Positions 29,602 through 33,193 of a DNA stretch of 34,156 bases are shown here, piece by piece. The translations under genes were made by a program, and so were the position numbers. The notes beneath the pieces were generated by a model, which worked only from the letters and a program-made list of their open reading frames with translations, searched no databases and had not been told where the DNA came from. Position 1 is the first letter of the stretch. Each line of letters opens with the position of its first letter. The DNA comes from an uncultured Alphaproteobacteria bacterium (lineage in GTDB: Bacteria; Pseudomonadota; Alphaproteobacteria; UBA8366; JADFVY01): NCBI GenBank assembly GCA_947259795.1, contig CAMYNJ010000151.1, positions 1-34,156 of the forward strand. Direction: 5' to 3'.

Positions 29602-30204
29602 TCACCCCCCGGCCGCGCGCTTTCGCCCGCGGGCCAGGATGTGGAGGACTCTCTGGCTGAGCTCCATGTCGGAAAGCTGGCGCACCGCCGCCGCCGCGCC
29701 CTCGCCCTGCCCGCCCTTGCCCTTCGGATTGACCCGGGGCGCGGTGCGCGGGAACAGGCCGAGATGCCGGCCGATCAGTTCCAGGTTGCGCGACTTGTCG
29801 GCCAGCTTGACCTTGATCCGCCGCGCGCCTTCGCCCGCCTTGCCGCCCTGCTCCAGCTCCACCGCCGAGATCGCGGCGGCCTGCTCGCGGGTCAGCCCGG
29901 CGGGGTCCAGCCAGGCCGCGCCGTCCGCGCCGGTCTCGATATAGTCCTGGATGTTGGCGAAGCCCAGCAGGGCGATCTCCAGCAGCACCCGTTCGGCGGT
30001 GATGCCGACGACCCGCGCGCGGTCGGCCAGGGCGGCCTCGAGCTCGGCGGCCACCGCCGGGTTCTGCCGCAGCGTCGAGCCGCGCGAGCCCGCCCCGCGC
30101 CGCGAATAGCCCGCCCGGATCGCCGCCCGGGTTCCGTTCAGATCGACCATATATTCGCGCACGAACTGCCGCTGCCGGTCGGTGAGTTTCCGAAGAGTCT
30201 TCAT
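29602..30204 (-). CDS. Phage terminase small subunit (orphan)
   Basis: A 200-residue protein starting at 30204 (AGGA six bases upstream). The N-terminal part LTDRQRQFVREYMVDLNGTRAAIRAGYS followed by an Ala/Arg-rich stretch and NPAVAAELEAAL is the Terminase_2 (phage DNA-recognition HTH) pattern, mentioned here in pieces: LTDRQRQFVREY, NGTRAAIRAGYS. Then ERVLLEIALLGFANIQDYIE and IKVKLADKSRNLELIGRHLG continue the family layout. The small subunit recognises phage DNA for packaging. No large subunit, portal or other structural gene is adjacent, so this is a prophage leftover or a domesticated copy. Confidence 0.88.
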   Translation of the reverse strand: MKTLRKLTDRQRQFVREYMVDLNGTRAAIRAGYSRRGAGSRGSTLRQNPAVAAELEAALADRARVVGITAERVLLEIALLGFANIQDYIETGADGAAWLDPAGLTREQAAAISAVELEQGGKAGEGARRIKVKLADKSRNLELIGRHLGLFPRTAPRVNPKGKGGQGEGAAAAVRQLSDMELSQRVLHILARGRKRAAGG

Positions 30205-30249
30205 CTCGTTCCTGCCTCGTTTGTTATCGGGAAACCATAACCTCCCGCC

Positions 30250-30332
30250 CGTCATCGCGAGGCGCGCAAGCGCCGCGGCGATCCAGAAGGACGGCAAGGC
30301 TGGATTGCTTCGCCTGCGGCTCGCAAAGACGG
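30250..30332. repeat. REP-like palindrome pair (CGTCATCGCGAGG ... CTCGCAAAGACG type)
   Basis: CGTCATCGCGAGG...GGCGATCCAG (30250-30286) is faced by CTGGATTGCTTCG...CTCGCAAAGACG (30300-30331). The outer and inner parts are complementary with mismatches. This resembles a very widespread bacterial extragenic repeat of the CGTCATTGCGAG...GCAATCCAG type. Confidence 0.6.
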
Positions 30333-30349: not shown

Positions 30350-30403
30350 AAAAAACCCGCCCCGGAAATCCCGGTGCGGGCTGTGCTCGCAGATCATGCG
30401 AGT
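30350..30403 (-). ncRNA. Candidate ~54-nt small RNA with own promoter and terminator
   Basis: Read on the minus strand, TTGACC (30438-30433), a 17-bp spacer and GAGAAT (30415-30410) form a good promoter, predicting a start near 30403. The short transcript folds into CTCGCA-TGATC-TGCGAG (30402-30386) and then a 10-position stem with one mismatch (30380-30356). TTTTTT (30355-30350) follows directly, the form of an intrinsic terminator. No convincing ORF with a ribosome binding site uses it. The next gene on this strand starts only at 30204, beyond the terminator. It could be an independent sRNA; comparison with short alphaproteobacterial sRNA families (suhB/mmgR type) has not been made. Confidence 0.5.
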
Positions 30404-30503
30404 CTTAAGATTCTCACTCGTTTTGCTGTCCCGGTCAAGCGCGGCTTGTCCCCGAGGGCCATGTCACCCACGCGATGCCGGCCGGCGCGGACGCACCGTT
30501 TTT

Positions 30504-30655
30504 CCCCCTCACCCTGCCCTCTCCCGCGTAGGGGAGAGGGTTTTATGGTGCTATCTCGATGGAAGAACCCTCTCCCGCAAGAGCCGCCTGTGCGGCTCGC
30601 ACACGATCGGCTGCGCCGATCTGCTCGGCGCATGGGAGAGGGCAGGGTGAGGGGG
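30504..30655. repeat. REP-like compound palindrome with perfect 22-bp outer arms
   Basis: Arms 30504-30525 and 30634-30655 are exact reverse complements (22 of 22). Inside, GGGGAGAGGG (30531-30540) faces CCCTCTCCC (about 30570-30579), and two small hairpins follow (AGCCGCCTGTGCGGCT and TGCGCCGA/TCGGCGCA). The CCCTCTCCC core is shared with the element at 13720-13813. Together with 30250-30332 and the sRNA candidate it fills most of the 530-bp gap 30205-30734. Confidence 0.8.
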
Positions 30656-30734
30656 ATGCCTGTGAATAAAGCGCCTGCCCCGGCAACCAACTGCTATCCT
30701 GCAACGACCCTCTTGTTCATGGAACCCCCGAGCA

Positions 30735-31058
30735 ATGATTTCCGCCCCCGCACTGGCGTCCCTTCTGAGCCACATCGAGGCCGCCACCGGCGCCGACCGC
30801 GCCCTAGACGCGGCGATCGAACAGGCACTGCGGGGCCGGGCGCAAGATCCGCCGGCCTATACCGCCTCCGTCGATCACTGCCTGGACTTGGCACACGAGC
30901 TGTTGCCAAACTGGCATTGGCATATCGGCCGCGGCGCGCGCGGCATCATGCCCTATGCATCGCTATCGAAGGGGGAGGTCACCGTCACCGCCGACGGCGT
31001 AACCGTGCCGCTGGTCCTGCTGGCGGCAATCGTCATGGCGCTGCGGAAGGAAGCGTGA
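30735..31058 (+). CDS. Phage ABA sandwich domain protein
   Basis: A 107-residue protein. LSHIEAATGADRALDAAIEQAL, PPAYTASVDHCLDLAHELLPNWHWHIG and VPLVLLAAIVMALRKE match the pattern of the small 'phage ABA sandwich' proteins found in prophages and gene-transfer regions (rough motif positions 10-30, 40-66, 90-106). The function is unknown. A decayed second copy of its C-terminal half lies 2 kb downstream (33018-33193), and an orphan terminase small subunit lies upstream, all pointing to prophage ancestry. Confidence 0.75.
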   Translation: MISAPALASLLSHIEAATGADRALDAAIEQALRGRAQDPPAYTASVDHCLDLAHELLPNWHWHIGRGARGIMPYASLSKGEVTVTADGVTVPLVLLAAIVMALRKEA

Positions 31059-31861: not shown

Positions 31862-31921
31862 GGCCTTTTTCTGCCGCCTCCCTTTTACCGGTCGGGTCGG
31901 GGTCGGCAACTGTCTTGGCGG

Positions 31922-32043
31922 TCAAGCCGATTCAGGTGCCCCGCGCCATTCCAAACCGTCGCGCATCATGGCGTTGAGCATGATCGACATCTTCCTCATG
32001 CAGGCGACGATGGCGACCTTTGGCTTCTTCCCGTTTTCGCGCC
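31922..32043 (-). mobile_element. IS110-family transposase C-terminal remnant
   Basis: The minus-strand reading ENGKKPKVAIVACMRKMSIML followed by NAMMRDGLEW and the stop at 31922-31924 is the characteristic C-terminus of IS110/IS902-type transposases (VA.VA..RK...ILNAM.RD). Only about 40 codons remain; upstream the frame runs into the antisense of the adjacent lipoprotein gene and shows no transposase motifs. It is therefore a small scar of a former insertion, ending exactly where the neighbouring lipoprotein gene stops. Confidence 0.8.
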
Positions 32044-32802: not shown

Positions 32803-33017
32803 AACCCCCTGCCTTTCCCTGCGCGCCCGGCGTTCGGCGGCCATGCGGACGCCCGATGCCGTGACGCAAACGCCGAACGCCTATCGTCCGGGCAATTCTC
32901 CAGGCGGCACATTCCCGCCCGGATAGAAATAATCGCCTGCGGATGGTATCGTGAATTGCACGGCATTTCAATCTGCACGAAAGCCGGAGATATTACGGCC
33001 GTGTCCCCGGAACTCCC

Positions 33018-33193
33018 CTGAACTTGCCTCACGAGCAGCTGCCGGGCTGGCACCGGCATCTCGGCCGCGGGCGCGCGGCATCATGCCCTATGCATCGCTA
33101 TCGAACGGCGAGACCACCGTTTCCGCCGACGGCACAACCGTACCGCTGGTCCTGCTGGCGGCCATCGTAAAGGCGCTGCAAAGGGAAGTGTGA
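33018..33193 (+). pseudogene. Decayed copy of the phage ABA sandwich gene (C-terminal half)
   Basis: This stretch aligns closely at DNA level with codons from about 50 to the end of the intact gene (30883-31058), including a shared core GGCATCATGCCCTATGCATC. One base is missing in the GGCCGCGG(G)CGCGCGGC run, so the N-terminal and C-terminal halves lie in different frames. Upstream similarity fades. It is a duplication remnant, not a working gene, although the last 45 codons still read ARGIMPYASLSNGET and VPLVLLAAIVKALQREV. Confidence 0.75.

Follow-up and report, generated by a model that had tools for sequence, protein, structure and literature searches.

The known families of antiterminators are mutually unrelated. 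In phage lambda (pR'/tR'/Q) and in phage 21, the late genes stand behind a promoter-proximal terminator and a short terminated RNA is made by default; the leader of lambda is about 194 nt long. The Q protein of phage 21 (21Q) binds direct repeats between the -35 and -10 elements of the late promoter (PMC6606751). In Pseudomonas aeruginosa, the AlpA promoters (alpB / PA0807) are followed, before the first gene, by an intrinsic terminator whose first nucleotide lies 26 or 54 nt downstream of the start site (PMC7969949), and AlpA binds the sequence GGGACG between -35 and -10 (PMC9371919). At the gene transfer agent promoter of Caulobacter crescentus, the site of GafZ also lies between -35 and -10 and a terminator is bypassed (PMC11150451). 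The module described here is known in kind, and new in its sequence and in its multi-copy use. On balance, we favour the reading that it serves a late-type transcription unit of a phage as its 5' leader, most likely controlled by antitermination, with a short RNA as its default by-product.

The module lies on the minus strand of the window (the whole stretch of DNA analysed, 34,156 nt, from the genome G000) and spans about 104-105 bp, from a GGGGACAA box to a T-run (30350-30453). The same unit is found at four loci of the congener G002, giving five full copies in two draft genomes. Its promoter consists of a -35 element TTGACC (30433-30438), of which TTGAC is invariant in all copies, and, after a 17-nt spacer, a -10 element GAGAAT (30410-30415), where TGAGAATCTT is invariant. 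Two repeats 20 bp apart flank the -35: the upstream GGGGACAA box (30446-30453), kept in four of the five copies, and a second box, GGGACAG (30426-30432), which lies directly after the -35, before the -10, and is present as GGGAC(A/G) in every copy. The GGGACAG box is a candidate site for the binding of an antiterminator or activator; AlpA, for comparison, binds GGGACG in the same interval of its promoters (PMC9371919). A possible, weak -10-like pause element, AAGACT (30401-30406; CAGACT in G002), is placed around the start site, at about -3 to +3; it agrees with nAnnnT, the pattern of published -10-like sequences (PMC6606751; PMC9371919), which lie further from the -10. At about the predicted transcript start begins a 5' hairpin, CTCGCA-TGATC-TGCGAG (30386-30402); its stem has 6 bp in the window copy and 5 bp (CTCGC-N7-GCGAG) in the others. 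The module ends in an intrinsic terminator (30350-30382) with an 11-pair stem, one conserved mismatch or bulge and then T6; in the window, the stem (30382-30354) contains one A.G mismatch and the T6 occupies 30355-30350.

The promoter is the sole 9/12 match within 1.8 kb, where 0.3 would be expected, and a promoter followed by a stable hairpin and T5 within 110 nt occurs once in the 34-kb window, both strands included. In dinucleotide shuffles of the window, the combination of promoter and terminator had a mean of 0.03 and was present in 2 of 60. The 57-nt minus-strand sequence folds at -27.3 kcal/mol, compared to -16.9 ± 2.8 kcal/mol for shuffles (z -3.7). Overall, the promoter-terminator combination is beyond chance, moderately when taken alone and strongly once its relatives are counted. 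A sequence-only reading had described this promoter, hairpin and T6 terminator as a candidate stand-alone small RNA gene; the feature is real, with its elements where that reading had placed them, and the sRNA label is right in part. The near-palindrome GAGAATCTTAAGACTC next to the -10, which had been taken for a possible operator, is palindromic in the window copy only, the other four copies having GAGAATCTTCAGACTC, which breaks the central TCTTAAGA.

Regulation by the RNA itself, as a riboswitch, a leader-peptide attenuator or a put-like antiterminator RNA, would be consistent with a 5' hairpin that precedes the terminator and carries an AUG in its loop. However, the two stems do not overlap, and a competing fold was rejected since none rivalled the terminator on truncation of the RNA or with the 3' arm blocked. 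A leader peptide was rejected as well, because a 2-nt difference between the copies disrupts the reading frame that follows the AUG. As no alternative fold competes with the terminator, we consider an RNA-only switch highly improbable; the lack of both a competing fold and a conserved leader peptide makes a protein acting on the polymerase the likeliest switch.

We compared the copies by local alignment of regions of 700-800 bp. The window module is 81-82% identical to the G002 copies over 94-109 bp and is thereby better conserved than the coding DNA of TerS (phage terminase small subunit), which is 69% identical. Homology is limited to the module of about 105 bp, plus the TerS coding region at one locus, and the module thus recurs as a discrete block at unrelated flanks. 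The aligned block extends from the GGGGACAA box, which precedes the -35 by 15 bp, to the T-run, except for the copy C570b, where it starts at the -35 region and the upstream box is changed to GGGCCCCC. The five copies do not differ in TTGAC, in the stretch TGAGAATCTT-AGACTCGCATGA, in the two stems or in the T-run; the inner box reads GGGACG in one of them (C129). Conservation of a mismatch or bulge in the terminator stem is also what could be expected of a passive attenuator or insulator, in which a constitutive promoter and a leaky terminator would give a low basal level of phage gene expression with no dedicated antiterminator, and the antiterminator of this module is indeed hypothetical. 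Nevertheless, a bare promoter would not need the conserved pair of GGGGACA boxes on either side of the -35, and we regard a purely passive device as quite unlikely. All 16 stem pairs hold in the five copies, with no two-sided changes; as these copies are near-identical and come from two genomes, the covariation that had been suggested as a check has little power and is uninformative on structure or trans function.

G002 also contains a half copy (C570c), which has no promoter and stands before a broken duplicate of one of the MPEPG genes described below, indicating that the module is also a site of recombination between copies. The duplicated piece belongs to a 398-aa MPEPG protein and is reminiscent of exchangeable toxin cassettes. 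In a third genome of the genus, G001, the contig that carries TerS begins inside TTTTCGTGG, the terminator tail of the window copy, at a distance of 72 nt from the TerS start codon; another copy of the module may have been present there and been lost to assembly.

Each of the five full copies is followed, a short distance downstream, by a co-oriented phage-type gene. The distance from the T-run to the start codon is 57 nt for C570a, about 91 nt for C570b, about 95 nt for C209 and about 105 nt for C129; in the window, the T-run is 145 nt from the start of TerS, an inserted repeat of 83 bp included. The copy C570b precedes TerS and then TerL, the module thus standing before TerS in both genomes and before TerL in G002, where it would control packaging genes. 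The three others (C570a, C129 and C209) precede genes whose proteins have a common N-terminus, MPEPG...LP.EY..F.L.DGR, and diverge beyond it. These MPEPG proteins had no family matches. We infer that they are phage genes, since on the contig C570 one of them is found together with TerS, TerL and a PBECR3 nuclease domain, a nuclease type described in phage polyvalent proteins that are thought to be packaged and injected (PMC5512222). The G002 prophage is split across short contigs; the phage region at 3432-6682 of L040 (C570) holds the gene with the PBECR3 nuclease domain and MPEPG-type genes.

The position of the copies bears directly on the sRNA proposal. Transcription of the module alone would give a short RNA of about 53 nt by default, which a 5' hairpin would protect, and a trans-acting sRNA of phage or host whose place before phage genes is incidental would agree with the compact promoter-hairpin-terminator unit and its strong fold, with the invariance of the hairpin and of the ATGA of its loop in all copies, and with the promoterless half copy, where the parts are separable from the start of a phage operon. 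On the other hand, every full copy is near and co-oriented with downstream phage-type genes, the promoter-proximal boxes are conserved within the block, and Rfam gave no match; a stand-alone sRNA gene is therefore unlikely. What stands of the proposal is one conserved promoter-hairpin-terminator unit with a minus-strand RNA of about 53 nt expected by default, whereas its placement fits the leader of a phage operon better. The gap that had been called gene-free is followed directly on the same strand by TerS. The absence of a gene upstream of the terminator, which had been used as an argument for a stand-alone transcript, is accounted for, because the module itself heads a transcription unit and needs none. 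As all five full copies are co-oriented just before phage-type genes, a 5' leader (attenuator) fits better.

In the window, the gene behind the module encodes a complete TerS of 200 aa (29602-30204, minus strand; PF03592, phrog_51). It matched PF03592 (Terminase_2) with an E-value of 2.1e-27 (96.9 bits, above the curated cut-off of 26.1) and phrog_51 with an E-value of 2.8e-28. Among the four genomes of the genus, TerL was detected in G002 only, with no match in G000, G001 or G003. TerS is thus found with no detectable TerL in three of the four, at unrelated chromosomal positions; these orphan loci are at 29602-30204 of the window, at 2524-3113 of L056, and at L057 and L058. The TerS frame is open in the window and in G001, and the dN/dS between the two is about 0.5, which suggests that constraint is weak. 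It is possible, though it is not what we favour, that the unit of the window has lost its function as part of a prophage in decay, as suggested by a TerS that lacks a TerL match and is open but weakly constrained, and by the dispersed repeat between the module and TerS. This would be compatible with a regulated leader in the intact phage. By contrast, TerS is a full open frame, the promoter, boxes and terminator are all intact despite a divergence of about 18%, and TerL may be missing from the assembly only, since G000 is 66% complete. Orphan TerS genes at unrelated positions, with the frame open in the window and in G001, could also point to a minimal domesticated unit, in which related phages, whether incoming or resident, would operate the promoter-terminator switch through their antiterminator. 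Production of TerS would then be confined to phage growth, and the protein could poison packaging or send it astray. Such a unit would do with a single gene what phage satellites do when they hijack packaging; it is, in our opinion, very unlikely. Under the antitermination-controlled leader that we prefer, the window unit may have been left in a prophage remnant and is perhaps regulated no longer.

The surroundings of the module contain several repeats. The dispersed repeat of about 83 bp between the terminator and TerS (30249-30331) has matches at at least 15 places in the four genus genomes. Upstream of the module (30503-30656), there is a long inverted repeat of the CCCTCACCCTGCCCTCTCCC type with perfect arms of 23 bp, of which another copy is present in G000 (C90). 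A repeat of about 178 bp with 84% identity is found at 30881-31058 and 33017-33193 and overlaps the end of a 107-aa open frame. The sequence at 31898-32000 gave an 80% match to G002 (C71) and a partial match to G000 (C115), and may represent the end of a transposase gene. Finally, alpha_tmRNA was detected in G000 and one congener, and among 14 control genomes in Caulobacter only, indicating that the host is alphaproteobacterial.

We then considered the range of the module. No copies were found in 385 genomes of the class, with patterns in IMG/VR, in 80 viral contigs bearing TerL, in phages, in plasmids or in Rfam. With the covariance model R1, the own locus scored 103 bits, while no other match in the 385 class genomes exceeded 36 bits, and the top five of these matches were ordinary terminators with no promoter. 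On the 80 viral contigs with a related TerL, R1 reached at most 18 bits, and no comparable unit was present upstream of six distant TerS relatives in the class. These two absences suggest that the module layout is private to one phage lineage. An exact search of the hairpin 17-mer in 257 Gb of genomes returned 24 scattered matches, about the chance level, and thus no relatives. In IMG/VR, exact motif patterns gave one match, inside a coding region, and further patterns none, while gapped promoter patterns gave 40 matches, none with a convincing terminator. Phage and plasmid records held one terminator-like stretch of 36 bp and no module. Within the genus, a match in G003 (C179) has the appearance of a generic terminator behind a gene, and one in G001 (C516) is only a 23-bp terminator-like sequence and is not comparable. 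The Rfam check that had been recommended gave no family at the gathering score. The sole Rfam sRNA model aligning across the whole unit, RcsR1 (RF02552), scored 13.9 bits, below its gathering score of 60, so that the module is not a member.

The module resembles the Q, AlpA and GafZ systems in layout, and its sigma-70-type promoter is followed by an intrinsic terminator ahead of the first gene. With AlpA, the module shares a terminator located tens of nucleotides on from the promoter, a cis layout used at more than one operon, and the letters of the box (GGGACG for AlpA; GGGACA for the module, GGGACG in C129), although this likeness of letters may be a coincidence. In contrast to AlpA, the module has two boxes, one of them upstream of the -35; its inner box, assuming a start site at 30403, lies 3-4 bp further upstream, and the module is found in Alphaproteobacteria before phage packaging genes instead of the lysis genes of AlpA. 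The direct repeats near the promoter recall 21Q, with the boxes of the module as the putative site, but their spacing is 20 bp and they lie on either side of the -35; those of 21Q are both between -35 and -10. Compared to the single pR' of lambda, the module is present in several copies per genome and its leader is of about 53 nt. GafZ/GafY also acts in Alphaproteobacteria at a packaging-gene promoter with a site between -35 and -10, which in the module is putative. However, the GafZ site is an inverted repeat (GCGCCCG-CTGGCGC) not seen in the module, its terminator comes after the first gene, and its promoter needs IHF and GafY sites.

Taken together, we propose that a sigma-70-type promoter, which we infer to be active, would start transcription at about 30403. 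RNA polymerase would make the 5' hairpin, meet the strong intrinsic terminator and release the RNA of about 53 nt by default. Only upon read-through would the downstream genes be transcribed, namely TerS in the window, and TerS-TerL and the MPEPG genes in the sister phage. A processive antiterminator or activator encoded by the phage would most likely permit this read-through, presumably loading via the GGGGACA boxes that flank the -35, and the same module before several operons would switch these on together.

Should the proposal hold, the locus calls for caution, as what looks in a prophage remnant like a compact sRNA gene, complete with promoter and terminator, can be the leader of an operon. 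With its orphan TerS, the window also offers a question on retained packaging genes that can be put to the test. If the proposal is true, one cassette of about 105 bp would combine a promoter, a presumed regulator site and a terminator, copied before several operons of one alphaproteobacterial phage group, and the late regulon of such phages, together with its antiterminator, would be findable by sequence.
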